NCBI GenBank assembly: GCA_016748015.1
Contig: JAAOMT010000135.1
Location: 1,073,582 to 1,137,581, forward strand
DNA from: Geosiphon pyriformis
Taxonomy: Eukaryota; Glomeromycota; Glomeromycetes; Archaeosporales; Geosiphonaceae
Reading direction: 5' to 3'
DNA: 64,000 nucleotides
Shown here: positions 19,297 through 64,000 of the stretch, piece by piece
How the letters are laid out: each line of letters begins with the position of its first letter
Position numbering within the stretch: position 1 is the first letter of the stretch
Made by a program: the position numbers and the translations under genes
The notes under the pieces: model-generated
What the model was told of the DNA's origin: nothing
Database searches by the model: none
What the model saw: the letters and a program-made list of their open reading frames with translations, nothing else

Positions 19297-20587
19297 TTGG
19301 AAAATTGTTACATGTAATGTTAAGGGAATGAACAATCCTGCAAAACAGAAGAACATTTTTTGTTGGCATAAGGAATCTGGTAGTTCGATCTTGATTGTTA
19401 CAGAAACCAAGTTGTGTTTCAGTTCACAATCTTGAATCATGAAAAGGTTTAAGGGTGTTTGGGTTTTTATGTCTGGTCTGGATGTTGGGTTTCATGGAGC
19501 TGGTGTGGCCATTTTTGTGAACAATTCTCTGACTTGTCATGTTTTCAAAGTTGAGGAGGTGAAAGGCAGAGCTCTTTCGATTTGTCTTTTGTTCAAAAAC
19601 AAGCTCTCTGTGTTTATCATTGGGCTTTATACATGTGCATCTAATGGTGACCATTTTGTTCAGACTTCTGTTATCAATTCATTTATTGCTGATACTGTTA
19701 ACAAAAGTTTTTTTGTTGTTTTGGGTAAGGATTTCAATGAAGACAATTCAATCAAGAGGGCAAGTCTTAGAAAATGCTTAAGTTTGGATCTAGTTAATGT
19801 TTTTGGTGGTCATTCTCTAACTAAAATTCTTACTTGGAGCAATTCAAGAGGTGTTAGCAAGGTTTTGAACTATATTCTAGTTAGTGACTCTTTGATTTCA
19901 GCTGTTGTGGATCATGATGTTAGTTCTGTCTTGGAATTTTTTAACATGGATCACTTGGCTGTCTTGATGTCTATTGGGTTGGGTGGTCTTCTAGATGCTC
20001 GTTTGAACAGCATCTGCAAGCACACTAATAAGGATTGCTGGAATTTTAAAATTAAGGATGCTGATAAGAAAAAGTGGGTGCATTTCAAAGAACTTTCTAA
20101 GTGTGCGCTTTTGGGTTCTCTGAATGAGTTCAAGACAGCTGAGGATGATGACAACTTGAATGGAATGTGGGGAGTGCTAGCTGAAGCCATAACTGCTTCT
20201 GCTGAAAAAAAAATTTCAAGACATTGGTATAGTGAATTTGATTATGCTAAGAATAAACTTTCTTCTAAATTTTCCAGGTTAGAGATGTTGGTTGCCAAGT
20301 TATTAAAGATGCTGAGACTGGATGATATGTTGGGCTTTAATTGTCTGGCTGACACTTGGTTTAAAGTTGACCTTTCCGAAACTTCCAAAGTTCTTGGTAT
20401 GGTCAGGGATGGTGTGAGTTCTGCTGGCTTGATAAGTCATCTTTTGAAGGTTAGAAAGCAATATAGAAAGTCCAAATATTATGAATCTGAAGTGGCTAAA
20501 AGATCTGCTATTAGAGACGCGATTGATAAGTGTATGGTGAAGTTTGATATGGACAAAAGTGGGATGATTCGAAGCATCTTGGAGTGG
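19297..20587 (+). pseudogene. LINE D/E ORF2, 5' half: endonuclease
   Basis: This is the APE endonuclease domain. CNVKGMNN opens it at about 19310, followed by VTETKL, then a stop at 19434. The frame 19439-20620 contains GKDFNED (GDFN-like), TWSNSRGVSKVLNYILVS and NMDHLAV, the last being the SDH-like active-site motif. In LINE A the matching motifs read KTIDFVFIS and DTDHKAV, so two Asp positions are Asn here. A helical linker follows, cut after SILEW at 20587 by the gypsy LTR. Confidence 0.85.
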
Positions 20588-21599
20588 TGTTACTGGAGGT
20601 TTTTGGTCTTTTTTCTGTAATGTTGTTAATACCTGTTTGTTGTGAATTCACATTTTCTGAATGTGGTTGAATCTTCAGTAACTGAATTTTTTCTTCAAAT
20701 TATCTCCTATAATTTGAACTGCTGGGCTTATAAGTAGAATGGCCAATTCTATACCAGTTACTTTGTATAGTTACATTGTAGGAAATGTCAACTCTTTCCC
20801 AGAAATTGCTTGTTTAGAAGCTCACTAAAAATGTGTAGTTACTTTGCTGTGAAAGTCAACTCTTCTACAGGAATCTCGTCTGTAAACTACCCTAATAATT
20901 GTAATAAGAAAAGAAAAAAAAATAAAAGAAATGTAAAAGAAATAAAATTCTGTCAAGGGAAACATTTTCTATCCAGGCCTGGAGTCACTAACAGTTTACT
21001 AAAATTAGTAGCTAATCAATTTCGAAATGTTAGTTGGATTTTGGGGATTTTCCAAGTACAATAATTAAAGAATTTGGTTTTTTGAATTATTTGATATTTA
21101 TTTCTTTTTGTGTGTATAGGAATGGTTTTAAGAGATAAATCTAAAGTAAGATATATTTTCTTGAAGAAAAAAGCTCTTCTTTTATACAACTTGTTGTAAT
21201 ACTAGTCTATAAACTTGCACTTTTTTTTTTTGCTCAAATTTTGGCAAACTAAAGATACATTTTGATGAACTACAAGTTATTTCACTAAGCTATTGATTAA
21301 TTTGGGTGAACTATTTATAATTTTGGTGAATTTCTGTAAATTTTGGCGAATTTTTTATAAATTTTGGTGGATTTCTGTAAATTTTGGCGAATTTTAGAAT
21401 GTTACAAAGTTCAGGATATTGTGTAATTTGATCATCCTACTTTCTGTTATACTAATTAGATTCTTTTAATTGAATCATGATATGTGATAATTGATTAAAT
21501 AATAAATAATAATTTGAAATGATATTAATATACTAATTAATTATAGGAATTATAAGGATAATTTCATGCTAATTAATAACTAAAATTCTACTGGTAACA
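20588..21599 (-). repeat. Gypsy 1 3' LTR (left copy)
   Basis: 1,012 bp with terminal inverted TGTTAC/GTAACA. It contains repeated units of the type AATTTTGGCGAATTTCTGTA at about 21215-21395. Compared with the right LTR by eye, about 60 substitutions are visible and all are transitions, with two compensating single-base indels in A/T runs. Confidence 0.95.
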
Positions 21600-22287
21600 T
21601 AATCTCCTCCTCAAAACTGAGCTCTATCAAAGTCCAAGCACTATCTGTAATATTAAGATAGTGATCCAAAATAATTGAAGTAATCTGATCCGAAAATTGT
21701 TGAAATTTCAGTTCTGTAAGTTTGTCAATGTATTGGACTTTCATTGGTTGTAATATTGGATTTTGTAAAACATTTTCATAAGTATTAAACAAATCATAGA
21801 GTCTAAAAACTGCTCTAAGTTTGTAGCAAGTGTTTGTTGGTCCAGCTGCTGTTTTGAATTCATTGTGGATTTGTTTTTGTATAGCTTCAGAAGTGAAATT
21901 TGTTGCTTCAAGTTCCAGTTTTTGTTTATAAAGTGTCTTTCCAATGTGGAAGTATTTATAGATAGGGGTGTGTTTATTGTTCTGTTCATTGAGAAGTAAT
22001 AGAAGTTTTTGTTGCATTGTAGTATTTGATAGAATGTCAATAGGGGCAATTAAAAGATTTTCTTTTAGTGCTTGCTTCAAAAGTCTTAGTAACCTATTTT
22101 CAGAGTGACTTCTCGTTTTTCTTCTATAGGGGTAATAGTTCTGTGCATGATTTGCTACTGAGGCTGTGGTTTTTTTCTGAATATAATTAATTTGACTTCC
22201 ATTAATCGTTATGGATAAGTCAGGAAGTGTTTTTAAGGCTAATATTAACTTTTGGGATATTTGTTGAATATTTTGGGGAATAATCAT
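21580..22287 (-). CDS. Gypsy 1 ORF3, env-position protein of unknown function
   Basis: This is an uninterrupted 235-residue frame downstream of pol, separated from the pol stop by about 150 bp. I do not recognise a domain. It is polar and Gln/Lys/Leu-rich, with no signal peptide or transmembrane segment, so it does not look like an envelope protein. The frame runs through the polypurine tract, which encodes an EEEI run near the C-terminus, and stops 20 bp inside the LTR. The second gypsy element has a counterpart in the same place with the same opening (M-x-IP, then Q-x-L-x2-AL, then an I-x-IN segment) and nearly the same length. It may be an accessory factor, which is inference from conservation. 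Confidence 0.7.
   Translation of the reverse strand: MIIPQNIQQISQKLILALKTLPDLSITINGSQINYIQKKTTASVANHAQNYYPYRRKTRSHSENRLLRLLKQALKENLLIAPIDILSNTTMQQKLLLLLNEQNNKHTPIYKYFHIGKTLYKQKLELEATNFTSEAIQKQIHNEFKTAAGPTNTCYKLRAVFRLYDLFNTYENVLQNPILQPMKVQYIDKLTELKFQQFSDQITSIILDHYLNITDSAWTLIELSFEEEIMLPVEF
21600..21613 (-). other. Gypsy 1 polypurine tract
   Basis: On the coding strand the bases next to the 3' LTR read GAGGAGGAGATTA. This is a purine tract in the position that primes plus-strand DNA synthesis. It lies inside ORF3. Confidence 0.8.
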
Positions 22288-22437
22288 GATAAAATTGACT
22301 AATTATGAAAAGAAAAAAAATAAGGAAAATTATTTTTGGGATATGGGGTTTTTATTTGTTTTTGGGTTTGGGTGTTTTTGTAATTTATTTACTATTTTTT
22401 TTTTCTTTGTGTTTTTATTGGGAAATTATTGTAAAAT

Positions 22438-23723
22438 TTAAGTGTTCGAATTTGGTTGTTGTTCTATTATAATTATTGGTTCTAAATTTCGGAGAATATC
22501 TTCAGGATTAATTAAAGGGGAATGTGTACCAATTTGTGGAATTAATGGTTCAGGATTGTTTCTGGAATGATAGTGTTTTAATCTGTCTCCATGTGCAACT
22601 TTTGCTAGTATTTTGTCATCAAGTCTTAACTTGTATGATCTATTGCCTAGAATTTTGTGAATATAAAATGGTCCATCCCATTTGTTTTCAAATTTCCCAC
22701 TCCATTGTTTTTCAGCCTTAGTTCTGTGTAAGAGAACTTTATNNNNNNNNNNNNNNNNNNNNNNNNNNNNNNNNNNNNNNNNNNNNNNNNNNNNNNNNNN
22801 NNNNNNNNNNNNNNNNNNNNNNNNNNNNNNNNNNNNNNNNNNNNNNNNNNNNNNNNNNNNNNNNNNNNNNNNNNNNNNNNNNNNNNNNNNNNNNNNNNNN
22901 NNNNNNNNNNNNNNNNNNNNNNNNNNNNNNNNNNNNNNNNNNNNNNNNNNNNNNNNNNNNNNNNNNNNNNNNNNNNNNNNNNNTTGGCTAGAGATTCACA
23001 CAATGTTCTGTTGAAACATTCTACAAGTCCATTTGTTTGAGGGTGATAAGGTGATAATAGAGGTCTTTTGACATTGAACTGTTTACAAATTTTTTGTATC
23101 AAGTTGTTCACAAAATGTGTTCCTTGATCAGATAAGAGTTCAATTGGGCATCTATGTTTACAGATAATGTCTTCATAGATGAAATTTGCTATTGATTTTG
23201 CATCTGCTCTTTGGATGGCTCTAGCTTTAGGCCATTTGGTAAGATAATCCACTGCAACTGCAATATAACAATTTCCTTGGGTTGTGATAGGTAATGGTCC
23301 AACTAAATCAATTCCAACTCTGTCAAAAAGTTGTCCAACTTTGATTGGATTTAAAGGTTCTATGGGATGAGTTCCTTTTCTTTTTTGACAATTATCACAA
23401 GATTCTATATATTGTTGAATGTCTTTTTGCATGTAAGGCCAAAAATAATGTTCAAGGGTTCTTTGAATTGTTCTATCTCTTTCCAAGTATGCTGAAAAAG
23501 GATCTGTGTGCATGTTATATAGAATTGTTTTTTTTTCATTTTTCTGTACTAATCTAAGTGGTTGGTTTGGGTTTTTACAATTTTTGTAATATATTTTGTT
23601 ATGGTGTATAAAATATTGTTTGAATTGATGTTGTAATCGATGTTTTTCACTTGGAGACCAATTTTCTGGTATAGTAAGAGTCTCCAAATAGTTTTTGATG
23701 TTGTTGTAATTTTCTGAATCCAT
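22438..23723 (-). pseudogene. Gypsy 1 integrase region of pol
   Basis: The N-terminal zinc-binding region ends in CDNCQ. The catalytic triad is visible: Asp in GIDLVGPL (about 23300), Asp in LSDQGTHF (about 23125) and Glu in NGLVECFNR (about 23020). A 241-base run of N (22743-22983) hides the region after the Glu. Beyond it the frame resumes with WSGKFENKWDGPF and a GDRLK segment, typical of the integrase C-terminal region, and ends at TAA 22438-22440. No chromodomain is seen. Integrase would join the DNA copy to the host chromosome. The catalytic residues look intact here, unlike the second gypsy copy. Confidence 0.88.
22743..22983. other. Assembly gap (241 N)
   Basis: A run of unknown bases inside the gypsy 1 integrase. 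The reading frame on either side fits a gap length of 1 modulo 3 as written, so the true length may differ. Confidence 1.
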
Positions 23724-25200
23724 TGTTGGTAATCTTGTTGTTTTGTCCTGCTGTTAAGTTTGTTGGTGTTGATGTTGGTATTAATATTGTTTCATTCTTG
23801 AGAGACTATCAACATTGGTGTGTAGTTTTCCTGGTTTGTGATGTACAATGTATTAGTAATCTGCTAGAAAGTCATTCCATCAAAACTGTTTGACACTTTG
23901 TTTAATTTTCTTTTTATTAAGCCATTTGAGGCCAATATTGTCAGTTATTATGTCAAATTCTTTTCCATTCTTTAGGTATTGTTGAAAGTGTTTGAGAGCC
24001 CAGATGACTGCAGCAGCTTCCAGTTCAGTTGAGCCATATTTGAGTTCTGTTGGCTTGAGTGTTTTGCTGGCATAGGCAATAACTTGTTCCTGGCTATTTT
24101 CATCCAATTGTGATAAGATGGCACCAAATGCTATGTGTGAAGCATTAGTGGCTAATTGAAATTGTTTGTTAAAGTCTGGGTAAGCAAAAACTGGAGCTGT
24201 TGTCAATTTTGTTTTGAGAGTTTCAAAAGCTTTTTGTTGTTCTTCAGTCCATTTGTATGGTACATTTTTGTTGGTAAGATAATTGAGTGGTTTAGCAATT
24301 TCTGAGAATCCTTTTATGAATTTTCAATAGTAAGAGACTAATCCTACAAATTCTCTTAGTTCTGTAGTATTTTTGGGAGTTTGAAAGTTTTTGACAGCAC
24401 TGATTGTTCCTGGATTTGGTTTGACTCCATCTTTACTAACTATGTGTTCAAGAAAGATTAAGCTTGTTTTTCCAAAGTGACATTTCTCAATGTTTAACTT
24501 TAATCCTGCTTTTCGTAATCATTGAAAAACTTCTCGCAAGTGAATGAGATGAGTCTTAAAGCTTGATAAGTATACATCAGTGTCATCAAGATAGACAATT
24601 ACTGATTGCCACAAGAGTCCTTCATATACAACATTCATAAGTCACTGGAATGTTGCTGGTGCATTGCAAAGTCCAAAAGGCATAATATTGAACTCATAGT
24701 TTCCTCTCTGGGTGGTAAATGCTGTTTTGGGTCGATCTTTTGGGTCCATTTCGACTTGCCAGTATCCACTTTCCAAGTCTAAAGTTGAGAAGAACTTGGC
24801 TTTTCCTAGAGCATCTAGCATGTCATCAATTCTTGGAAGAGGGTAGGCATCTCCAATTGTAACACTATTCAGTTGTCTATAATCAATACAGAATCTGATT
24901 TTTCTGTTTTTTTTTTTAACTAAAACTACTGGTGAGGCCCAAAAACTTCTTGATGGTTGAATTAATTCGTTATTGAGCATTCTTTGGACCTCTTCTCTGA
25001 TGAATTGGTGGCTGGCAGGTGGTACTTGATAAGCTTGTTGACATTTTGGTGGAGCATCTCCTGTATAGATCTGATGTTAAACAATATCCGTTTTTCCCAA
25101 GTCATTGTTGTCTTTTGCAAATATATCTGCAAATTCAGCTATCAATTGTTTCAATTGTCTTTGTTGTTGAGGTTCTAAGAGACCCATGTTGATTTAAGAG
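23724..25200 (-). pseudogene. Gypsy 1 reverse transcriptase and RNase H
   Basis: The RT frame enters with PPASHQFI and shows [42 protein letters not shown] and [13 protein letters not shown] (24642-24980). The active site YLDD is intact at 24582-24593. RNase H follows in 23880-24206, with LATNASHIAFGAIL where the family has TDAS, so the first catalytic Asp is Asn. The Glu (GSTELEAAAV) and second Asp (IITDNIGLKWL) are present. In-frame stops follow TFQ, VFQ and YY, and each fits TGG or CGA mutated to TGA. Confidence 0.9.
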
Positions 25201-25397
25201 AGTTTTTCTTCCAAAAAGTGGTAGTTTTCAGTAGTGGGAATGATATTTGGATTTGGGAGTAGAGTGTGCCTTACAATTTCGATGAAATTAGAGACAATTT
25301 GAGAGTTTTCATCTTGAAAAATATTGCTGTGTATGATTTCAATCTCTAGTTTGTTTAATAAGACAATAGGGTAATTATTGGGGTTGTAGAATGTAAC

Positions 25398-26232
25398 TCA
25401 AATTTTTTTTATTCCTTTGGGAATATAAACATTTGGAATTGAGATTTCATGCTTCAAACAGATTTGTTCATTGGATTCAAAGATTTGTTGTGTAGTGGTG
25501 GGTTTTGAGCAAGTGTAAATTTCGTGATGTTCTCCAAAAGGTGAAATGGTAATTGGCTGGGGAAGTTGAATAATCTGGTAAGATTTATTTTGTGTATTAA
25601 GAACTATGTTTACTGGAACTGTAAATTGTCCAGTTGAACCAAAACCTTGAGTTTCTCTTTCACTTTTTCCCAATTGTTCTCTGTTGTTTACTGATTGTAA
25701 ACCCGAAATGTTGATTAAGGGTAAGTAGATTGCTTGAGCAATTTTTTTTAGCATGTTCAATTTTGAATAGTTTATCTGTCTCATTCTGCAACATGATGGT
25801 AATGTCTCCAGTGTATTTTGCATCTATAACTCCTCCTCTAATATTGATTCTTTTGTTTGCCAATAATGATCTGGAGGCAATTTGAACCATTACTTCTAAT
25901 GGAATTTCAAAAGCAATTTTGAGATTGATTTTTGTCAAGGACTTTGGTTAAAGAACTAAAGTATCTTTTCCTGAGTATCTTAAGTCATATCCAGCATCAA
26001 TTTCGTGTGCTTTTTCTGGTCTGATTTCTTGGCCATGGTTGTCAAAATATTTAAGTTGTAGAGGTGGTTGTTTTTCAAAAAGATAGATGGGGGTGGTTGG
26101 TAGTTTTTCTCTTAGTTCAGCTACTCTAAATTCGATTTCATTTTCATTATTCTCATCTGGCAGAGGAATGCTAAGAGCATAACATTCTAAACACCATTGG
26201 TCATCACAAGGCATAATATATTCTTCACACAA
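25398..26232 (-). pseudogene. Gypsy 1 dUTPase domain within pol
   Basis: All five motifs of trimeric dUTPase are readable in order between protease and RT: DAGYDL (motif 1, about 25985), ASRSLLA (2, about 25870), GVIDAKYTGDI (3, about 25820), KKIAQAIYLPL (4, about 25730) and TQGFGSTGQ (5, about 25640). The enzyme would hydrolyse dUTP and keep uracil out of the DNA copy. One TAA (about 25950, where alignment suggests Gln) and one frameshift in an A-run near 25745 break it. Motif 2 has SL where SS is usual. A conserved 140-residue tail follows. The second gypsy element has the same domain in the same place. Confidence 0.88.
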
Positions 26233-26233
26233 T

Positions 26234-27000
26234 TAAATGTTCATTTGCTCTAATCATTGAATTTGAGCTTCTTTGGTCGGATATGTATGACTTGCAATTT
26301 GGTGGTAGGTTTCTATTTTATCTTCATAATCAAATTCAGCTAATTCCATAGTATACTTAATATATTCAGCTTTTTTCATTTGGCAGACATCTTTTTGGGT
26401 GGCTCCATTGATCAATGCCATTGCTAGGTCAAAAATCATTTCAGTATCATGAGGGTAGTGGTAAAGTTTATTGAGAGCACTGTTGTATGCTGCATCAAAT
26501 AGTGTTCCTCTTCTGACTTTTTCCGAAATTGATAGAGCATATTGACAGTTTTGATCACATACTCCTCCTCTCATTGCTACATCAATCCAATTGCATTCTT
26601 TTGGTAGCATTTCTCCACATGTAAGGCAAAAAGTTTTGTCCCATTTTTCACTTCTCTTTGGGGATCCAAATCATTCTCTATGGCATGCCTTGCAGAAGTA
26701 ACAAGTGCGAGTTTCATATTCCTCTTTTGAGGAGATATAGGCTCCCATAGATGAAAGCTTCTTTTTGCAATTTTTGCATTTTAGTGGAATATATGGTGGT
26801 TCTTTTCGTGGTTCTGGTGTAGAATATCTAACTTTCTTCCATCCCCTTGATTCTTTAAAAATCTCTTGTTCTGTTTCCTCAGCCCAATTGGATGGTGATC
26901 CAAGAGCCATGTAGGTTTCAATGAATGGCATTTCCTTCTCTTCTTCAAATTCAAATACTGGAGCTTTTTTTGATCATTTGTTAAAGGTATTACAGGTTGC
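26234..27000 (-). pseudogene. Gypsy 1 Cys-rich insert between protease and dUTPase
   Basis: This part of the same reading frame has repeated paired cysteines: CKNCKKKLS (about 26785), CYFCKAC (about 26695), CLTCGE (about 26625) and CDQNC (about 26545); just downstream is CDDQWCLEC (about 26190). The pattern suggests zinc ribbons or treble-clef-like modules. In-frame stops (TGA after HRE, others near 26250) look like TGG/CGA or CAA decay. I do not recognise the module from other gypsy elements. A homologous but more damaged segment lies at about 62.5-63.2 kb in gypsy 2. Confidence 0.7.
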
Positions 27001-27002
27001 AG

Positions 27003-27670
27003 GTACAATAGTATATTGTTCTTGGTATGAGATTTTAAGTTCTTGAGTTTCCCAATTCAGGTTTGCATTGGTCTTGAGAAGCCAATCATTTCCAACTAGA
27101 GCTTAATATTGGAGTGCATCCATGACAAGAACTTTAACTGGAATGGTAATTCCATCAATTGTAAAGGGGAAATCATCAATTTCTCCCACTGGAGTCTTCT
27201 TTATACCATCAGCTATGACAATAACTGTTTGAGCTGGTCTATCTACGTTTTGTTTGAGTTGTTGCATCAGCTGGTAAGTGATGATACTTCCAGCTGATCC
27301 ACTATCTAAGATTAAGCAAATGGGTTTTCTTTCTACTATAGCTTCTGTGTACATAGCAGTAATTGCTTTCTGTTCATTGACTGCTGCATTACTAAGCAGA
27401 AATGGTGATTCATTTGCTTCAAATTCAAATGGAAATATATCTGACAGATTGACATTTTGGGCAATTTGAGCTGGTGGAATGATGTGATTGGAAGAGTTTG
27501 ATCTTAGTGCTGCAACTTCACCTTCAGAAAGTGCAGTTTGTTGAAAATTTGATTCTTCTGGTATTGTAAGATAACTGGGTTGAGTGTGATAGTAATTGGG
27601 TCTTTGCTGACTAGGATTTCGGGAAACCAACTGGTTATTTGGATTAATTCTGTTGTGGTTACTTTGCAAT
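27003..27670 (-). pseudogene. Gypsy 1 aspartic protease (retropepsin)
   Basis: The active site LILDSGSAGSIIT lies at about 27290-27315, followed by the flap and C-terminal part (VIVIADGIKKTPVGEIDDFPF). A TAA at about 27102 interrupts before ALVGNDWL, the conserved C-terminal strand. The protease would cut the Gag-Pol polyprotein. It is in the same frame as Gag, with no frameshift site between them. Confidence 0.88.
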
Positions 27671-27933
27671 TAATTTTGGGGTGTGAATTGGTTATGTTGA
27701 ACCAATCTTTTTGCTGGTACTTGATATTGTTGAGTGAGTGGTGTCTGATATGGCTGAATTGGTAAAGATTGCTGATATTGTTGCTGCATTGGTTGTGGAG
27801 CTGGTGAATAGTAACTGTTTTGATTTTGTGGTCTTGGTGAATAATAGGTTGGTGGTGGAGATTGGTAATAGGATTGTTGTGGTGAAGAGTAATGTTGATT
27901 ACTCTTGTTTTGTTGGTCTCTTTGTAATTTCCT

Positions 27934-27975
27934 ACAATCTTGTTTCCAGTGTTCTGGAATTCCACAATAATGACA
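27934..27975 (-). pseudogene. Gypsy 1 nucleocapsid zinc knuckle
   Basis: CHYCGIPEHWKQDC fits C-x2-C-x4-H-x4-C exactly and lies in frame with Gag. It is followed by a Gln/Pro/Tyr-rich linker of over 100 residues before the protease. It would bind the element RNA. Confidence 0.92.
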
Positions 27976-28053
27976 ATTTTGAGGTTGGTTGTTGGATGGT
28001 GATTCAAAATTGTTTTGGTTGTGGCGTTGTGGGGGTTGATATCTTTGTGGTTG

Positions 28054-29406
28054 TTATTGCTGTTGTTGTTGGTTTGTGAAGTAGCTTTCAACTTTTTTTG
28101 TGAATTGGTCTATCTTCTTTTTAGCTGTTAAGCTGGTTTCTCCAATTGCAAGGTTTACAAGCTTGGTGTAATTTGCTTCTTCCATTGCCATTTCATAGCT
28201 CTTTGCATGTCTAATAGCAGTTGTTAAGTCTGCTGGAGCATGTAGACGGACTTTCTTAATCAGTTTGTCTTTTAACTCTGCTATAAACTGATCCAGAATT
28301 TGAGCATCAGAATAGTAGTTATTGGTTTCCAATTGTCGGATTCATCTGAGAAGTTTGTTAAATCTTCCAAGATAGATTATAACAGTTTCAGATGTTTCTT
28401 GTTTAATATTATGAAAGTGGTTTCTGAGAGTGATAGAGATATTGTTGTTAGTGAATTGTTGTAAAAAAGCATCTTTGAATGCTTGCCAGTTTTCAAATAG
28501 TTCTTCTAAATTTTCAAACCATTCTCCTGCTATTCCTTGGAGAAAGTAGGGAATTGCTTTGAGCATTCTTGCTACAATCCAACCATTTGCATCTTCTGCT
28601 TTTTGAACTTTGTCAAGCCATTCTTGAGAACTAATATTATTGTCTTCGCCAGTAAATTCTGGGATTTTTGCAATGTAAGCAGTTGCCATTTCTTCTTCAT
28701 TTTCTGTAATTTCTTCTGGTTCTGATTTGGTTTCTTTACTTTCCAAGCTTTCTGAATGATTACTTTTGTTTTTCTATAAGTAATCAATGATATTGGCACT
28801 TGTTGATATTGGTTCCTGCTGTTGAGTAAGGTTTCTATGTGACTGAAAATCTTCTAGTCTGGAGAAGTGGTTGAGTGGTGAATTTGGTATTTGTGGTTGA
28901 ACAAGTGAAATTGGAAATGGTGTAATAGAAAGTGGTAATTTGACACTGGTTCCTTGTTCAGGTGTTTGCAAGTGTTTGGCAGTTGTCTTTTGTAATGTTG
29001 GAGTGTTTGAAGTGGTTTTTGAGTATTGCTTCAATCTTTGTTTGCCTTTGTTGCTTGTTTCTGTCTCTGATTCAAAGTCAAAAGAGTATTTAGACTGTAT
29101 TGGGTATTTTTCTTTACAATACTCAATAATGTTAAAATTAAGTTCTTGGAAGTAGGTAGCAAGTGTTTTACTGTTCAGGTTTTCTGTTCCTAATTGTGAA
29201 TAGTGCACTAAATTATTGTAGAGGTTGCTTTTAACTTCTGAAATGTTGTAGTTTCCAAAAAGATAATTGTTGATGTGGTTTTTAATATATTGGTATACTG
29301 ATTTCTTTACAACTTCAATTCCGTCTGGAATGTTGAATTTTTGTTTGCAGTGAATGTAAATTGACTGGTAATACTCTAAAGTTGCTGTGTCTGGTGTGGT
29401 TGCCAT
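28054..29406 (-). pseudogene. Gypsy 1 Gag (matrix-like N-terminus and capsid)
   Basis: ATG at 29406 is the first after the primer-binding site. The N-terminal piece (28774-29406) is a polar domain I do not recognise. The capsid (28054-28746) shows the Retrotrans_gag pattern: IPEFTGED, WL..V, a YFLQGIAGEWFE block, WQAFKDAFLQQF and then ETVIIYLGRFNKLLR. Two stops lie inside: TAG at about 28771 and TGA at about 28340, the latter consistent with CGA to TGA. Gag, protease, insert and dUTPase share one frame, so the element probably made one Gag-Pol polyprotein. Confidence 0.88.
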
Positions 29407-29433
29407 TTTGAATTTGTTGTTGCTGTGTTATTT

Positions 29434-29449
29434 CCGTGGGAGAGCCCCA
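29434..29449 (-). other. Gypsy 1 putative primer-binding site
   Basis: Two bases after the 5' LTR the coding strand reads TGGGGCTCTCCCACGG. It starts with TGG, as expected for pairing with a tRNA CCA end. I cannot assign the tRNA. Confidence 0.65.
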
Positions 29450-29451
29450 AA

Positions 29452-30463
29452 TGTTACTGGAGGTTTTTGGTCTCTTTTCTGTAATGTTGTTGATATCTGT
29501 TTGTTGTAAATTCACGTTTCTGGATGTGGTTGAATCTTCAGTAGCTGAATTTTCTCTTCAAATTATCTCCTATAATTTGAACTGCTGGGCTTATAAGTGG
29601 AATGGCCAATTCTGTGCCAGTTACTTTGTATAGTTACATTGTAGGAAACGTCAACTCTTTCCCAGGAATTGCTCATTTGGAAGCTCACTAAAAATGTGTA
29701 GTTACTTTGCTGTGAAAGTCAACTTTTCTACAGAAATCTCATCTGTAGGCTACCCTAATGATTATAATAAGAAAAAAAAAGAAAAATAAAAGAAATGTAA
29801 AAGAAATAAAATTCTGTCAAGGGAAACGTTTTCTATCCAGGCCTGGAGTCACTAACAGTTTACTGAAATTGGTAGCTAATCAATTTCGAAATATTAGTTG
29901 AGTTTTGGGGATTTTCCAAGTACAATAATTAAAGAATTTGGTTTTTTGAATTATTTGATATTTATTTCTTTTTGTGTGTATAGGAACAGTTTTAAGAGAT
30001 AAATCTAAAGTAAGATACATTTTTTTGAAGAGAAAAGCTCTTCTTTTATACAACTTGTTGTAATACTAATCTATGAACTTGCACTTTTTCTTTTTGCTCA
30101 AATTTTGGCGAACTAAAGATACATTTTGATGAACTACAAGTTATTTTGCTGAACTATTGATTAATTTGGGTGAACTATTTATAATTTTGGCAAATTTCTG
30201 TAAATTTCGGCGAATTTCTTATAAATTTTGGCGGATTTCTGTAAATTTCGGTGAATTTTAGAATGTTACAAAGTTCAAGATATTGTGTAATTTGATCATC
30301 TTACTTTCTGTTATACTAATTAGATTCTTTTAATTGAATCGTGATATGTAATAATTGATTAAATAATAAATAATAATTTAAAATGATATTAATATACTAA
30401 TTAATTATAGAAATTATAAGGATAATTTCATGCTAATTAATAGCTAAAATTCTACTGGTAACA
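29452..30463 (-). repeat. Gypsy 1 5' LTR (right copy)
   Basis: 1,012 bp, identical in length to the left LTR. It retains more CpG than the left copy, for example CGGCGAA against TGGCGAA at about 30215. This LTR would carry the promoter of the element. I could not place a transcription start. Confidence 0.95.
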
Positions 30464-33400
30464 ATGGTCTTTTCGCAAAGTTGTTCTAGACCATTTGGTT
30501 GTTGATGATTCTCTTATTTTGGAATCTAATGAAGTAAGGCTCAAGGTGGATGACATCATAGTTAATTGGACCAGAAAGCGGAATGCTCTTCCTGTCCTAT
30601 CTGGTCTCTGGGCGCAACAATATACCCCTTTGGCTTATGTTAATGATGGTGCCTTTAGTCTGGTTATGTGTGATATTACCATGTATAAAATGTCTTCAGT
30701 TATAAGCAATCTTCCTGATGGCAAAGCTGCTGGTTTGTCTGGTATTACCAACAAATTTTGAAAACATGCTGGCTGTTTGGTTTTGGAGTGTTTGTTGTCT
30801 TTGCTGAACTCTTGTTTGCATTTTGGTGATGTTCTGGTCCATTGAAAAGAGGCCTGGATGTCCATGATTCCTAAGCCTTATGTTTGGGATGGCATTTTGT
30901 TGAATACCCGGCCTATTGCATTAATTGAGACAGCCAAAAAAATTTTGTCAAAAGTTTTCTCAAACAGGATCTTTCTTGCTTGTAGTAAGTTTGATGTTCT
31001 CTGTGGTAACAATTTTTCTGTCCTCAAAGGCACTTCCACTCAGTCACCAATTTCAGCTGTGGGTTCAATTGTGGAAGATGCTTTGGAGAAAGGCTGTGAA
31101 CTTTGGCTGGTTCTTCAAGACATGTACAAAATGTATGACTCTGTTAGTTGGTCTCATTTGAAAGCTAGTTTATGCCATATCAAAATGTGTGACAGGTTCA
31201 TCAAGTTTTTTGGCAACATTCACAACAATTGCTTCAACAGAGTCATAACAGATTTTGGCCTTTCTGATGGATACAATGTTCTTGATAGTTTGGATTAGGG
31301 TGAAGTTTTCTCATCTCTCCTATGAAGAATTTTTTACGACCCTTTATTATGTGAGGTTGTAAGACAAGGTCATTTGTGTGGTTATTGGATCAATTCAAAC
31401 TTTGTGGCAAAAACTGGAAGAATTAAGACTAGTGGAGGTATGACTTCATTTTTTGTGGCTGGCATCTTTGTTGATAACATTATTTGGGTGGAAAATAGAC
31501 AAGCCTCTACACAACACATTTTTGATGTGATCAGCAAGTTTTTCCTCATCAATGATATTAACATAAACAATGAAAAAATGGTTGCCATTTCTATCAACAA
31601 AAGAGTGGGGATTTCTGTTTTATCTATCAACGGCCAGACTATCACTGTTGCCAATCCTGGTGTGAGTTATCAATATTTGGGTATTTTTTTGTCCACCAAT
31701 GGTTTGTTTAAGCCAAGTCTTGCCAAAGCCAATGCAGATGTTAGGTTCTTCTCAAATATGGTTCTCTGAAAAGCTGTCTCTGATAAACAATTCTCTTATC
31801 TGGTTTCAGCTGTTTTGCAGCCCATAGTCAGTTATTGGATGCAGTTTAGTTTTGTTTCCAAAGCTGTTTGTCTAAAATGGGATGTTCTAATTAGAAAAAG
31901 TCTTAAGTCAAAAGCCAATTTACTGAGAGACTTTTCCAATAAGATGTTGCACCACCCTTTTCTTTATGGACTGAAATCTTTTGAACAGTTGCAGGCTGAA
32001 TACAAGATAGCTTCTATTGTGCAATTTGCAAATTCTTCTGGAATTCTTGGCCGTTTGTTCAAACATTGATTTTTGGATTTACAGATTTTGTGCTGAACTC
32101 CACTGAACCCTCTTCAATATTCTGTTAAGTTGAGAATGAACACTTCAAACAATCTTCTAGTGGGTGTGGTTCATATATTTCTTGACAACAAGCTGTCTTT
32201 AGATAACTGGCTTCTCTGTGCCTTTCGCTTTCCTGGCCATTTCCCAATGTCATTGGTATTGGGTAATTCTTTGTATTTCAATGTGATTCGCTTCTTGAAA
32301 ATTACTGGTATGGCATATAGTAACCAAGTTCTGAACAAAAAAGGTTCTGTTGTTAATTGGTGTACGTTTCACCAATGGAGAAGACTTGGTTCTAGAGGCC
32401 CCATGCCTTTATGGTTTTTAAAAGCCTCCACTTATTTGAATAGTTGTTTGCATGCTCCCCCTCCTATGAGTTTAGCTTCTGTCTATGCTAGTGTTTTAGA
32501 TTCGACGTTTTTTGCCAATATTCATGAGGAAATCCATGGATTGTAGGCTGATAAGATTGATATTTATACTGACAGTTCTCTTAGAGGCTTGAGTATGTTT
32601 CAGGTGGTGTATGGTGCTGCTGCTTATTTTCCTAGCTTGAACAAAGGTTTAGGAGTGGAGGTACATGGTGTGCTGTCTTCGACCCTGGCTAAATTACAGA
32701 CTGTTGCCCTGGCTCTGGAGTGCGTTCCTGCCTCTGTTTCAATAGCTTTGCACACAGATAGTCAAGCAGCTATCGATGCATGTGTGGCCGAATTGGGTCT
32801 CTTGCAGCCGAATTGTCACAATAGTTGCTGGATAGAAAGGCACCATGTGATTAATTTGATTAAATCCAAAGATCTGACTGTTCGTTGGATTAAAATCAAA
32901 GATCATGCTGGTATTGCTGATAATATTATGGCTGATGCTTTTGCTAAACAAGCTGCACACTCTAGGATCTCTCTCCCTATCAAGATTAATTGTAGATATG
33001 TGGTTGCTGATGGCAGACCAGTTTCTGGTAATGCCTGCCATTTTGTACATGACATTTTTTATTCCATCTGCAAGTTTCAATGGGAAGTGGGTCCTGGCCA
33101 AGAGATTTTGTCTTGTTTGTTTGGTTTGGTTGTCAATTGGAATAGTACCACTCTAGTTTGGCACCCTGACTCTCATATGCTCTCTGGGAGTACATGTCAA
33201 GCCACTGCTGTTCTTCATACATACTTCATGAAAGCTGTTCATTTCAAGTTGCCTATTGCTGTTCGAAAAAGGCTGTATAATAAGAATTACCCTGGTGTGT
33301 CATGTCTATTTTGTGGTAATATGGAACTCCCCGATCATGACTTTACTTGTGTTAAAAATGCTTCTGTGTGGTCGTGGTTTGTGGAAAACTTTGATGGGTC

Positions 33401-33828
33401 CTAATCTACTGTTGCTGTCTTTTGTGTTGCAAGATTTCTTTCTGGAGATGTCTGATGTTAGTTTGTATTCGGTTTTTTGCAAGAGATTTGTTCTCAAGAG
33501 TTGGATGAATAAGGTTATTGCTTCTCTCAGTGACAAGAAGAAAGCAGCTTTTGTGGTAATGAATTTTGTCCATTGTTTAGCTAAGAGTCATAGGATAAAC
33601 CTCTGACTTTTTAGAACTAAGTTCAGGTTTAACATGGAGAAAAGTGATTTGATTGGTGATAATGTTGTTGTGGCTGGTGCTCTTAGTATAGATGCTCTGC
33701 TTCTCTCAGCTGGCATGGTTCATCTTACTAGTGTGTTGGATTTTTTTGATGTCGGTTTCGGTTTTAGGGATAGGTTCTTGTTTTTGTCTGGTGCTGTTTA
33801 TAGGGTTAGTGTTTCTATAAGTGTGTAG
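30464..33828 (+). pseudogene. LINE D/E ORF2, 3' half: RT, RNase H, CCHC segment
   Basis: The frame resumes with SFRKVVLDHL, matching LINE A's SFRKVVLDHL exactly. RT blocks include ETAKKILSKVFSNRI, NNFSVLKG and LVLQDMYKMYDSV. The active site reads FVDN at 31470-31481, the second Asp changed to Asn by one transition. Then come RNase H with IYTDSSL, LHTDSQAAIDA and WIKIKDHAG, and the zinc segment CLFCGNMELPDHDFTC. Stops appear at many TGG, CAG or CGA positions, and beyond about 33400 the frame is heavily broken. The conserved tail follows at about 33829-33945. Confidence 0.88.
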
Positions 33829-58649: not shown

Positions 58650-61480
58650 TTAATTTGACATATTTGGTTTAATGATTATGATTGGTTCCAGATCTTGTGG
58701 AATTTCATCTGGTTAGACTAATATTCTTTGTACTCCTAATTGTGGAATATTACTGGTGGATGGTGACACTATATAGTAATATTGTTTTAGTCAATTATCA
58801 TGTGCTGTTTTGGCTAAGATTTTGTTATTCTATCTTAATTTATAAGTTTTATTTCCTAGAATTTCTTCTATGTGAAATGGTCCATCTCATTTCGAATCAA
58901 ATTTTTCACTTCATTGTTTTTTTGCTTTGGTACAATATAGAAGTATTTTGTCTCCAATCTTGAATTCAATTGGTTTGGTTATTGTGTCTTTCTTTTTGTT
59001 TTTTTTGTGACTTTTGGATGTTATTAGCTGCTCTTTGTCATTTGTTTTCTAGTGTCTCTATTAAGTCATATGTTCTTTTCAACAATGTTTTTTGAAAATT
59101 TTCTTCTGTTATTGGTTTTGTTGAATATGTTTTGATTTCTATCTCAACTGGTAATGTTGTTGTTCTACCATATACTAATTTAAATAGTGTTGCTTGTGTA
59201 GTATCTTGCTTCATTGTCCAATAAGCAAATAATACTAATAGTATGAACAAATCTCATTTATCTTGGTTTTTTTGGCTGATCTTGGCTATTGCTTTACACA
59301 GTATTCTGTTGAACTTTTCAACTAATTCATTTGTTTGTAAATGATATGGTGATAATAATGGTCTTTTTATTTCAAATCTTTGACTTAATTTTGCCAATGT
59401 TCTATTCACAAAGTAAGTTTCTTAATCTGATAGTAGTTTTTTTGGACATCTGTGTTGACAAATCAAATCTTGATGAATGAATTTGGCAACAAATTCTGCA
59501 TCTGCTCTTTGAATGACTTTTGTTTTTGGTCATTTTGTGAGATAATCTATGGCTACTGCAATATATCTGTTGTTTCTGCTGGTAATTGTTAATGGTCTGA
59601 CTAAGTCAATTCCAATACAATCAAATAGTTGTTTCACTTTGATTGGTCTCAATAGTTTACTGGGTTTTGTCCCACTTTTTTTTTGACAAATATCACAATT
59701 TTGAACATATTAAATGATGTCTGGATACATTAATGGCTAATAGTATCTTTTTCTGATTCTTTTTATAGTTGCTTTTTTATGAAAATATCCTGCTGTTGGA
59801 TCTGAGTGCATGTTAAATAATATTGTCTCTTTCTCTGGTTCTGTAATTACTCTGGTTGGTTGATCTGAATTTTTTTTGTTCTTCTAGTAAAGTATATTTT
59901 GATAGTTAATAAAATATTTTAATTGTTGTTTTATGTTGTTTTGTTCTTTCCGAAATAATTTCTCCTTGAACAATTGGGTATTTATATAATGTTGGAGTTG
60001 TTGGTATTTTTGTATATTTATCTTTTGTTATATTTTTGGGTTGAAATGTTTTTAAATTTGTTTTATTTGTAACAGACCATTGACATTTCTGTTTTTTTTT
60101 CTTTTTTTGTAATATACTGTATAATTAAATAGTGAAAGCTCTATTTTTCATCTGACATGGCAATTGTCTCCAAATTCTTGCTTCTAGATTGAAGTTAATT
60201 CTTTGTGATCAGTGTACACATCAAACTTTTGACTCAAGTATTCTTTTCATTTGATGACAGCCCAATAGATTGCTAAGTGTTCCAATGCTAGAATTCCATA
60301 GTTTTTTTCAGCTGAACTTAAGCTGTGGCTAACATATGCTACTGGGTGTTTTTGTTCATCCAGTTTTTTTTAAAATAGTACTATTCCTAATGCTTGACCC
60401 AACACATCTGTTGTAATTATGAATGGTTTACTATGATCTGGATAGATCAATACTGGGACTTGAATAAGCTTTCTTCTTAATGTATCAAAAGCTTCTTGCT
60501 GGGTTTCTGTCCATTTATATTTCGTGTTCTTTGTTTGTAGTTGATATAGTGGTTGAGCTATTTTGGAAAAGTCTTTGATAAAGTGATAGTAGTAATTAGC
60601 AAATCCCAAGAATGTTTTTAATTCTGTGAGATTATTTGGTACTGGAAAGTTTTTAACAATCTTAATCTTATTTGAATCCATTTTAATACTGTCTTTGTTT
60701 ATAATATGTCCTAGAAACTTGAGTTCTGTTTTACCAAAGAAGCATTTGTTTGCATTTAATTTTAGCTCTGCTTATTTAAGTCTTTTAAATACCTGTTAGA
60801 AATAATGCAGATGATTATCAAATGTTTTTAAAAACACATTGGTATTGTTTAGATATATGACTACTGATTTTTATAATAACCTTATATAGACAATTTTCAT
60901 GAGCCATTAAAATGTGGTTGGAGTATTCATCAAGCCAAATGGCATCACTTCAAATTCAAAATTTTCTTCTTGAGTTGTAAAAGCTGTTTTTTCCTTGTCT
61001 TCTAATTTTATAGCTACTTGCCAGTAACCACTATCTAAGTCTAAAGTTGAGAACCATTTTTTTTCTCCAAAAGTGTCAAACAGCTTTTGAATCTTTGGTA
61101 TTGGATAACTATCTCTTTTTGTCATTCCATTCAGTTTTTGGTAATCCACACAAAAGTAGATTTTTCCATTTTTTTTATGAACTAGTACTACTAGTAATGA
61201 CCATGAACTTATTAATGGCTGAATTAGCCCATTGTCAAGCATCTGATTAATTTTTTAATAAATGATCTCATGGCTGGCTGGTGATACTCTGTATGCTCTT
61301 TGTTTGATTGACATTGCATCTCCAGTCTTAATCTGATGCTGAATTATGTCAGTTCTGCCAAATTTATTTTCACTGGCAAAGATGTTGTTAAAGTTGTTAA
61401 GTAACATCTTAAGTTGCATCTGTTGAAGTGGGTTTAAGTTTTCCAAGTTTATTTGTTCTAACTGTTTTGGCTGGAGCAAA
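58650..61480 (-). pseudogene. Gypsy 2 RT, RNase H and integrase
   Basis: RT blocks are WSLLVVLVHKKNGKI, CVDYQKLN, WFSTLDLDSGYWQVAI and MPFGLMNTPTTF (60907-61242). The active site reads YLNN at about 60848 instead of YLDD. The RNase H region begins at 60370-60681. Integrase shows CDICQKKSG, GIDLV, LSD and ELVEKFNR, so the D-D-E residues remain, but stops interrupt them. The C-terminus ends LEPIIIIKPN at 58650, like gypsy 1's LEPIIIIEQQ. Confidence 0.85.
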
Positions 61481-61586
61481 TAGCATTTTTTTCATCTGTA
61501 TATGATTTGAGATGTGATATCTACATATCTGCACAGTTGTGGAAAATCTGGAATGGTGTTTGGCAATTGGTCTTCAATTTTAGTGG

Positions 61587-62276
61587 TTAAATATCAATAG
61601 TGGTTCCTTCTGGTATCTTGATAATATCTCTTGTGTTGTTATAAATGAGAATTTTAATGTGACTGTGGTTCTTGGCTGGTATGTGTAGATTGACTAATCT
61701 AATTTTTTTTAATTCACAAATTGTTGCTTCTGCTTCAAAAATTTGTACTTGATCCTTTACTTTTCTCTCTATGATTACTATGTACTGGTCATATGGTAGA
61801 ATGGAAATTGATTGATGGGTGGAGATAATTTCTCCCTTGTCAACAATTTTTTTTTCTGCCATATTAATTGGTACATCTATTCTACTTGTGAATCCAAAAC
61901 TCTGTATTTCTTTAGCTGTAATCTCTAATTTTTTTCTGTTTCTTACTGATACTAATTGAGCTATTTTAACCAGAGACAGGAATATTACCTGTGCTATCTT
62001 TTTATTTGGCTCTATAATGTAGGTCTTTTCTGAGTCATTTTGTAGCATTACAATGATATTTTTTATATATCTTGTATCAATTATTTTTTCTCTGATATTA
62101 ATTTCTCTTTTTGCCAAACTATTCTTAAATGCTAATTGAACTATTGTTGTTGCTGAGATCTCTAATGCTACTTTGAAATCAATATATGTGTGTAAATGCA
62201 GTTCCAATTTAATAGTGTCTTTTTTTGGATATTTCAGATTAAATCCAGCATTAGTATTATGTACACATTCTGACAT
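61587..62276 (-). pseudogene. Gypsy 2 dUTPase domain and tail
   Basis: An open 229-residue piece of pol: NAGFNLKYP (motif 1), AFKNSLA (2), KIIDTRYIKNI (3), KKIAQVIFLSL (4) and IQSFGFTSR (5). It aligns residue by residue with gypsy 1's DAGYDL, ASRSLLA, GVIDAKYTGDI, KKIAQAIYLPL and TQGFGSTGQ. Catalytic positions are altered (Asp to Asn in motif 1, GGVID to EKIID in motif 3, GST to FTS in motif 5), so this copy is unlikely to be active despite its open frame. Confidence 0.82.
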
Positions 62277-62300
62277 AATACTTTCATCATTATTACTGAA

Positions 62301-63430
62301 CTATTTCAGTTTCTGCTCCTTGGTAAGATCAGAGTTTAAATCTGAGTCTAAATTATTGTTATTTTTATTGCCATATTGAGTAAAGCTGGAACTGTTGTTT
62401 TTGTCATCATCATTATCAGAGTTTGAATTGGAATTGAAAATTGATTCTAATTCTGATGCACAGCTGCTAATTGGTTTTTTCTCTTCTGGAATCATATAAA
62501 TTATGTGTAGTGGTGAATTGTAAATGAGGTCACACTTATTACAATACTAAAAATTATATGGGATCAAACAGTAGTTATATAGTCTTGTGTTTATTTCTTC
62601 TAATCATTGTTCTTGTTCTTCTCTAGTGGATGTTAATTCTTGGTAATGCTCATGGAATTGTTCTGGGCCTATAGGCTCTAGGATAATATCTGGGTTCAGG
62701 CCCCCATTGAGTTTTATAAGTTCTGATGAGTTGTTTTTGATCATCTTTATTTCTTCTGATAATATTTCTTTAATTTTGGTGAGTGCTATTTGCCAGATTT
62801 TGTCATTATTGTGTAGACATCTGTTTAAATGTTTTACTGCTCTTCTCTAGACTGCTTCTATTGGTGTCTTTTTTCTTATCCAGTTACTTATTAGGATTGT
62901 GTACTGACACAATTTATCGCATGTTTTTCTTTCAGGAATGTTATTCTATATTTTTTTGTCAAAGAGAGTTTTGCCACAAGCCAAACATGGTTCATTGTCC
63001 TATTTTCTTTTTTTTTTGGTCATCTAAACCATTCAATAATACATGGGTGGCAATAGAATTTAGTTGCTATCAGCCATTCTTTGTCATTGCCACAACATAC
63101 ATCTATTGTGGACAATTTCTTGCCACAATCAATGCATATTAGTTTCAGTCAATAATAGTTAGATGGTAGTAGTATAGTATAGATGTAGGGAATATGAGTA
63201 GCGATGGTGATTGGTGCTGGCTCTTTTTTTTTTTCTTTTTCTTTTCCTTTTGTATTCTCTTTCCACTCTCAAGTTGGTATCAGTTCAGTGTTATTGTCAT
63301 CAATCCACCATGTTTGGTTGGCATTTTTGGCAGGTTCTTCTTTTTTCTTTTTCTTTTCATTGTCATTCCAGAATAATACTGGTGGCAACTCGTTGTGATT
63401 GGTGTTGGCCCAGGAAACTTGATAGGCTTC
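62301..63430 (-). pseudogene. Gypsy 2 Cys-rich insert
   Basis: Between protease and dUTPase, fragments read CGKKLSTIDVCCGNDKEW, YCHPCIIEWF and CNKCDLIYNSP. They are joined by a region with IRKKTPIEAVQRRAVKHLNR that aligns with gypsy 1's VRRGTLFDAAYNSALNKLYH. An acidic Asn/Asp/Ser-rich stretch (62301-62495) precedes the dUTPase. This supports the insert as an ancestral part of the family. Confidence 0.65.
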
Positions 63431-63850
63431 TTAGATAGGTTTTCTTTCTTCTTCTTTTAATTCAATGAGCAGCTTGTTGTTAGTAGTGATCTTAAAATGA
63501 CCACAAATAGCTGGCACAAGTGTATGGTGGCTGTTTTGGTTGATTTGCAGTTTTTGAGTGTTCCAGTCAAGCATGGTGTTGGTTTTAGACAGCCAGTTGT
63601 TTCCAATAAGAGCTTGGTACTGAGTTGTTTCTATTACCAATACCTTGATTGGTATTATGATGCCATTAACTTCAAATGGGAAGTTGTCTATTTTACCAAT
63701 TGGAGTTTTGGTCACTCCATCAGCTGTTATAATTCTGGCACTGGCAGAGTGATCAACTCGGTGACCTAATTGGTCTATAAGTTGTCATGTGATAATACTG
63801 CCAACTGATCTACTGTTTAAAACCAGTTTAATGTGCTGCCCATCAACTTT
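63431..63850 (-). pseudogene. Gypsy 2 aspartic protease
   Basis: The active site reads LVLNSRSVGSIIT at about 63790-63830, where gypsy 1 has LILDSGSAGSIIT: the catalytic Asp is Asn and Gly is Arg, both single transitions. The remainder, KTPIGKIDNFPFEVNG and ALIGNNWLSK, aligns throughout with gypsy 1. Confidence 0.82.
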
Positions 63851-64000
63851 AACATTTGTATACATTGCAGTGATGGGTTTTGATTCTAGGGTGGCTCCAC
63901 TGAATAGCGGCATTTTAGCTGGTTCTTTGAGTTTAAAAGAGAAAATAGTAGTAAGTAATTCATTCTCAGTAATGGTTGCTGGCAGTATATTGTTAATAAG
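63851..64000 (-). pseudogene. Gypsy 2 Gag-protease linker, cut by window end
   Basis: The coding strand continues upstream of the protease with AMYTNV and PLFSGATLESKPIT, matching gypsy 1's AMYTEA and FLLSNAAVNEQKAIT. Gag lies beyond the window. Confidence 0.6.

Follow-up and report, generated by a model that had tools for sequence, protein, structure and literature searches.

An inactivated Ty3/gypsy retrotransposon of Geosiphon pyriformis whose pol has a dUTPase domain after the protease and before the reverse transcriptase

The minus strand of a 64,000-nucleotide stretch of the Geosiphon pyriformis genome ('the window') carries what we take, with a probability of about four in five, to be an inactivated Ty3/gypsy LTR retrotransposon whose Gag-Pol, as judged from its sequence, includes a homotrimeric-type dUTPase domain between protease (PR) and reverse transcriptase (RT) that would keep uracil out of cDNA. 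The element occupies positions 20588-30463 of the minus strand, with a full layout and broken reading frames. It is bounded by LTRs of 1,012 bp each (TGTTA...TAACA; 5' LTR, 29452-30463; 3' LTR, 20588-21599), found by self-BLAST with ends read, that are 94.2% identical and have 57 base differences, all transitions. Between the LTRs, on the same strand, lie a first ORF (217 aa; 28774-29427), gag (28054-28773; Retrotrans_gag E 2.9e-11), interrupted by a stop, a nucleocapsid-like part with a CCHC knuckle (27670-28053; E 0.0021, under cut-off), PR (27103-27669; Asp_protease_2 E 1e-5), a Cys-rich stretch of no known family that is stop-broken in this copy (26254-26973), the dUTPase domain with its five motifs (25626-26055), which contains one stop and one frame change, a linker (25194-25625), for which the corresponding stretch of another copy, L007, has no Pfam family, RT (24504-25193, the low end estimated from match length; RVT_1 E 5.9e-19 in the open part, 24645-25076; 3 stops), RNase H (23880-24323; RT_RNaseH_2 E 1.2e-36), integrase (22990-23753; H2C2 zinc part E 2.3e-16, rve E 8.4e-11), an SH3_Tf2-1-like integrase C-terminal part (22441-22737; E 3.2e-5, under cut-off), and a third ORF (240 aa; 21580-22302). 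The 249 bases at 22739-22987, in the integrase region, are N in the window; with those upstream bases masked, the integrase C-terminus of the window copy gave no chromodomain match at E<=0.01. The order gag, PR, RT, RNase H, integrase between LTRs is that of Ty3/gypsy (Metaviridae) elements, and the nearest solved RT is that of Ty3 (4ol8, E 1.1e-43; 7q5b, E 6.4e-43; next, E 1.6e-27), so that the first-pass annotation, which placed the domain in a Ty3/gypsy pol, identified the carrier correctly. The two ORFs that flank gag-pol have no Pfam family above cut-off and recur in other copies of the same family (family A), in which their dN/dS (ratio of sums) is 0.26 for 21580-22302 and 0.35 for 28774-29427.

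The sequences at the ends of the element contain a candidate 4-bp target-site duplication, GTGG at 20584-20587 and ATGG at 30464-30467, taken from the empty-site join; it counts as a candidate only, since the repeats disagree at one base (G against A). The surrounding plus-strand sequence appears to be a LINE-like element (19436-20620 and 30462-33404) split by the gypsy insertion. To the right of the gypsy element, the plus strand has matches to RVT_1 (E 5.2e-4, under cut-off) and RNase H (E 3.5e-9); to the left, an open frame has no Pfam match at E<=0.01; and removal in silico of the element and one 4-bp repeat joins the left and right flanks in one stop-free plus-strand frame. The window contains another gypsy copy with a dUTPase, from a different family, at 59290-63988 of the minus strand (low end estimated from match length); it is strongly decayed and has PR, Cys-rich stretch, dUTPase, linker, RT, RNase H and integrase in the same order.

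All five dUTPase motifs that the first-pass annotation had reported are present, in order, in the translated minus strand: DAGYDL (motif 1; 25981-25998), ASRSLLA (motif 2; 25858-25878), GVIDAKYTGDI (motif 3; 25801-25833), KKIAQAIYLPL (motif 4; 25716-25748), and TQGFGSTGQ (motif 5; 25626-25652). The motif-3 Asp and motif-3 Tyr, which we take to be the catalytic residue and the uracil-pocket residue, respectively, are both retained. A search with the dUTPase family model, which had been proposed as a check, gives a match for the middle piece of the domain (PF00692 E 7.2e-9, 35.9 bits; cut-off, 22), and the Asp_protease_2 match upstream and the RVT_1 match downstream confirm the placement between PR and RT. 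The interval that had been assigned to the dUTPase, 25398-26232, holds the domain at about 25626-26055, and the remainder is flanking pol; the Cys-rich domain between PR and dUTPase had gone unmentioned. The statement that all motifs lie in one Gag-Pol frame does not hold: motifs 1-3 are in the gag/PR frame, motifs 4-5 are in the RT frame, and a stop falls between motifs 1 and 2. A programmed frame change inside the dUTPase was considered and ruled out, since other copies read the dUTPase in one frame; that is, in 9 of 10 other sampled bearers a single-frame tblastn match spans the domain (with an internal stop in L019 and L023), and in the tenth, L028, the match covers the second half only. 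We conclude that the window copy is dead and that dUTPase function has been lost there.

The dUTPase is abundant in this genome. The Pfam search of the 124.7-Mb assembly found at least 150 places above cut-off, a lower bound because 150 of 3,181 first-look candidates were scored and all 150 were above cut-off. At least 184 Geosiphon gene models have dUTPase-like sequence (one search contributing 120 listed of 386 matches), and the named matches among those listed in the protein searches are all Geosiphon pyriformis gene models (locus tags G9A89). The host had been described as an AM-type fungus; it is a glomeromycete, as that description implied, but one whose partner is Nostoc and which is not known as a plant AM fungus.

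To sample gypsy elements blind to the dUTPase, we ranked the 150 best RNase H places and, within rows 1-77, used one row in four with 10 kb around it, obtaining 20 loci. A dUTPase precedes RT in 10 of the 20 (L016, L018-L023, L026, L028, L029); PR, Cys-rich domain and dUTPase occur in order in nine of these, the tenth, L023, being cut upstream of the dUTPase; and PR through RT is in a single frame in L020, L022 and, additionally, L007. The other 10 loci (L010-L015, L017, L024, L025, L027) have PR and RT and, by tblastn, no dUTPase match on the same element, the judgement for L015, L017 and L024 resting on tblastn and inspection by eye. A hidden, divergent dUTPase in this lineage was sought and rejected: seven open pieces that reach into the PR-RT interval, from 7 of the 10 loci, gave no match at E<=1. 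Copies lacking a dUTPase between PR and RT had been named as evidence that would count against the domain; such copies exist in a different RT lineage, and none was found in the 20-locus sample among relatives of the window element. A short Cys motif is present between PR and RT in dUTPase-less L010-L014 and L027 and partly in L015, L017 and L024, and is possibly a relic or a relative of the Cys-rich domain.

In an RT tree of 35 rows (34 different; 25 bearers and 10 non-bearers), the dUTPase label requires one change, with support of 100/100. We conclude that, in the 20-element sample and the outside rows, the dUTPase is bound to one RT lineage. Rows shorter than 140 aa were dropped from this tree (L011 of the sampled loci; L001, L002, L004 and L008 of the short loci), and L009 and L010 are the same place. 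The tree is unrooted, and a midpoint root places the non-bearers among the bearers, which would imply a loss in place of a single gain; because dUTPase queries supplied the outside rows, outside bearers are over-sampled and outside non-bearers are missing. Among the Geosiphon bearers, the tree recovers family A, which contains the window element (96/98), and family B, which contains L007 (99/98); the second window copy stands apart on a long branch; and P0010 and the P0049/P0050 group, from outside Geosiphon, are on the bearers' side.

In a tree of the dUTPase domain itself, the host gene and yeast Dut1 group together (99/98), away from a 35-row set that contains all Geosiphon retroelement copies in the tree (100/99) and in which the second window copy, P0011 and further rows form family C (100/99). 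The deep order of this tree is unsure because the bootstrap had not settled; the tree uses 22 chosen proteins and leaves out the broken window copy, the partial L017 and L028, P0034, and P0004. Two retroelement proteins fall outside the 35-row set: the Ty3/gypsy-like P0061, which lies near E. coli on long branches, and P0209, beside the host and yeast dUTPases (99/97). P0209 (988 aa) combines a dUTPase with RVT_2, the Ty1/copia type of RT, with the dUTPase after RT. The positions of P0061 and P0209 fit several independent gains, as proposed by Novikova et al. (2010; PMC2864245).

The window LTR pair, with 57 transitions and 0 transversions, exemplifies a general pattern of decay. Across 17 direct-repeat pairs taken as LTR pairs, we find 618 transitions and 46 transversions (bearers, 264:12; non-bearers, 354:34), or 585:27 for 16 pairs if L024 is omitted, the pair used for L024 (33:19) being possibly not an LTR pair; left out of the sum were satellite pairs and repeats in L014 (three pairs), L015, L019, L024 (80:7), L025, and L027 (two pairs), judged to be nested or other copies and not the sampled element's own LTRs. 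The differences comprise both C/T and A/G in both gypsy lineages, and C sites differ by transition at 76 of 132 CpG, 177 of 1210 CpA, 89 of 445 CpC, and 155 of 1205 CpT positions. In a window satellite, used as a loose control, the transition:transversion ratio ranges from about 0.9 to 2.6, and there is little or no bias in three diverged window pairs outside the sum (67-71% identity; 84:109, 122:132, 117:49); it is the younger pairs, then, that carry the bias. Of the 82 changes found only in the window copy, 63 are C-to-T or G-to-A; the corresponding share lies at 0.61-0.85 for five further copies of family A, 0.43 for L018, and 0.18 for L021, which is more diverged and whose changes are not truly polarised. 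Family A has 89 stops at codons that are sense in some other copy; 61 of them fit the C-to-T/G-to-A class and 28 do not. This decay accounts for many of the broken frames and for part of the A/T bias. We read it as the mark, in a glomeromycete, of either a RIP-like process or slow methylcytosine deamination, with the CpG preference leaning towards the latter; RIP signatures are reported as not detected in Gigaspora margarita or Mucoromycotina (PMC8647823). No age was derived from the window LTR divergence (K2P 0.060), given that transitions make up all 57 differences. The transition-only decay may be a larger lead than the dUTPase.

Two alternative accounts concern the identity and origin of the domain. 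That the motifs are a chance string, or belong to another fold that merely resembles dUTPase, might be thought from the C-terminal piece of the window domain, which alone is below cut-off (PF00692 E 0.07, 13.3 bits; cut-off, 22), but is already refuted by the family matches: the whole domain of L007 matches PF00692 at E 1.8e-25 (89.6 bits) and the PHROG dUTPase at E 1.2e-38; at E<=0.001, the L007 domain has 77 distinct matches in the PDB, of which the 60 listed are nearly all named dUTPases; and yeast Dut1 scores 47.8 bits against the window stretch, where none of 200 base shuffles exceeds 21.9 bits. If the window element had recently captured its host's dUTPase gene, a host gene of the same family would be expected, and there is one, with five exons, at G000:C262 near 402.3-403.0 kb (L030/L031). 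It was first missed with the yeast Dut1 query because the best 150 places were all retroelement copies; it was found with a shorter query and a DNA pattern, and its presence rules out a loss of the host dUTPase, which had also been considered. Yet the host and yeast dUTPases group apart from the retroelement set in the domain tree, in which the bootstrap is unsettled and some of the rows have long branches; whole yeast Dut1 has its best genome matches in retroelement copies, with approximately 35% identity, whereas a host exon has 54% identity over 41 residues; and the domain is common to three Geosiphon families and to unnamed outside relatives. Recent capture is highly improbable. The joined host exons score only 19.6 bits against the window stretch.

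Two further accounts concern what the domain does. The domain could be a leftover without catalysis whose role is to space PR from RT, an account suggested by the loss of at least one of seven key residues in 43 of the 86 Geosiphon gene models that cover every motif site (the other 43 being intact) and by the related elements that manage without a dUTPase. We consider it unlikely. Most of the losses (D to N, G to E/R, R to K/Q, S to N/L, T to M) are outcomes of C-to-T or G-to-A change, the mark of decay in Geosiphon elements. Among gene models covering the respective site, the motif-3 Asp is present in 136 of 167, the motif-3 Tyr in 166 of 166, the motif-5 Phe in 120 of 121, and the motif-4 Gln in 173 of 173, a count in which stop-free gene models cannot reveal Gln-to-stop losses. 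Nearly all of 16 non-Geosiphon proteins retain the key residues, and all 16 have the catalytic Asp. In family A (8 copies; dUTPase from 27 pairs), dN/dS, as ratio of sums and median, is 0.24 and 0.31 for dUTPase, near the values for gag (0.26 and 0.28) and integrase (0.31 and 0.34), with RT at 0.15 and 0.23 and RNase H at 0.12 and 0.15; in family B, it is 0.33 for dUTPase vs. 0.51 for RT. Each value is a mixture of selection on active copies and post-insertion decay. With that decay mixed in, the dUTPase looks to be under selection about like that on gag and integrase and less tight than that on RT and RNase H. It had also been suggested that the dUTPase is tied to the extreme A/T bias of the genome, and an adaptation of this kind would follow the reasoning that more thymine sites offer more places for uracil. 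The link is not supported, because dUTPase-less elements are equally frequent in the sample (10 of 20) and similar in GC (mean around RNase H, 0.366 for non-bearers and 0.350 for bearers); C-to-T type decay is alike in the LTR pairs of both; and, in the available descriptions, basidiomycete, rotifer and planarian elements also bear a dUTPase. We regard such an adaptation as very unlikely, and the preferred reading remains a dUTPase that would act on element cDNA.

The domain that follows PR and precedes the dUTPase comprises, in L007, approximately 240 aa, 19 of them Cys; 17 Cys are present in the compared stretches of each of P0011 and P0010, with most Cys pairs in register with L007. No known family was found for it (Pfam best E 0.015, below cut-off; PDB best E 0.54; PHROGs none at E<=0.1). 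All three Geosiphon families, and P0010, have it in front of the dUTPase; it was not seen in P0049 or P0050, the latter having one short CxC-xxC run. The domain may bind zinc. A bolder proposal, which we put forward tentatively and consider rather unlikely, is that Cys-rich domain and dUTPase form a composite of a new kind, in which a zinc-bound dUTPase tethered to nucleic acid would act on particle cDNA and would be retained as a counter-measure where C-to-T deamination strikes the host's retroelements.

The position between PR and RT had been called unusual, a view that the literature does not sustain: the same order is published for Postia PosPlaTy3-5, for bdelloid Juno, Vesta and TelKA, and for planarian elements. 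In the available text of Novikova et al. (2010; PMC2864245), Postia elements have the dUTPase in three positions, one of them between PR and RT, earlier cases in Phanerochaete and Tuber are cited, and independent gains are suggested. PosPlaTy3-5 of Postia placenta resembles the window element as a fungal Ty3/gypsy LTR element with a dUTPase between PR and RT; it differs, on comparison by description, in being from a basidiomycete and treated with chromodomain elements, whereas the Geosiphon copy has no chromodomain match, and the part of the description available mentions no Cys-rich domain (PMC2864245). The bdelloid rotifer elements Juno, Vesta and TelKA are likewise described as retrovirus-like LTR elements with PR-dUTPase-RT order and third ORFs; they differ, again by description, in their animal host and in the extra zinc knuckle of Juno, which follows the dUTPase, whereas the Geosiphon Cys-rich domain precedes it (PMC5408684). 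Planarian Gypsy-like elements share a dUTPase-like domain between PR and RT and, as described, are unlike the window element in being giant and in having several other domains (PMC6431247). In Entomophthora muscae, the dUTPase Pfam family is reported as enriched among retroviral families (PMC11105155). Retroviral dUTPases, according to the accessible part of a review, are alike in being element-encoded and are thought to keep uracil out of cDNA, and in non-primate lentiviruses the dUTPase is critical for replication mainly in non-dividing cells (PMC4531489); they belong to an RT lineage other than that of the window element. The outside proteins P0049, P0050, P0187-P0191 and P0010 have dUTPase then RT, and PR in all but P0191, and lie on the bearers' side of the tree; P0010 shares the Cys-rich domain with Geosiphon, and P0049 and P0050, as read, do not. 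A search by title and abstract, with subscription journals mostly outside its coverage, found no earlier report of such dUTPase elements in Glomeromycota. We conclude that, on the published descriptions available, the PR-dUTPase-RT order has precedents among other fungi and among animals, and that Geosiphon extends the arrangement to Glomeromycota.

In working copies, the protease would free a Cys-rich/dUTPase piece, or leave the piece joined, inside the particle, where the dUTPase would convert dUTP to dUMP and PPi. With dUTP removed, RT would put no uracil in place of thymine into element cDNA, and the uracil-free cDNA would go uncut by host base-excision repair. An element with its own dUTPase might thereby be copied in nuclei, or at times, of low host dUTPase. 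The dUTPase is not essential to retrotransposition in Geosiphon, since half of the sampled gypsy elements lack it. For annotators, the results carry a warning: retroelement copies would inflate dUTPase counts, and the host gene sits elsewhere. For the biology of the elements, the presence of a bearer lineage and a dUTPase-less lineage in one genome provides a natural pair for asking what a dUTPase of its own gives an element.
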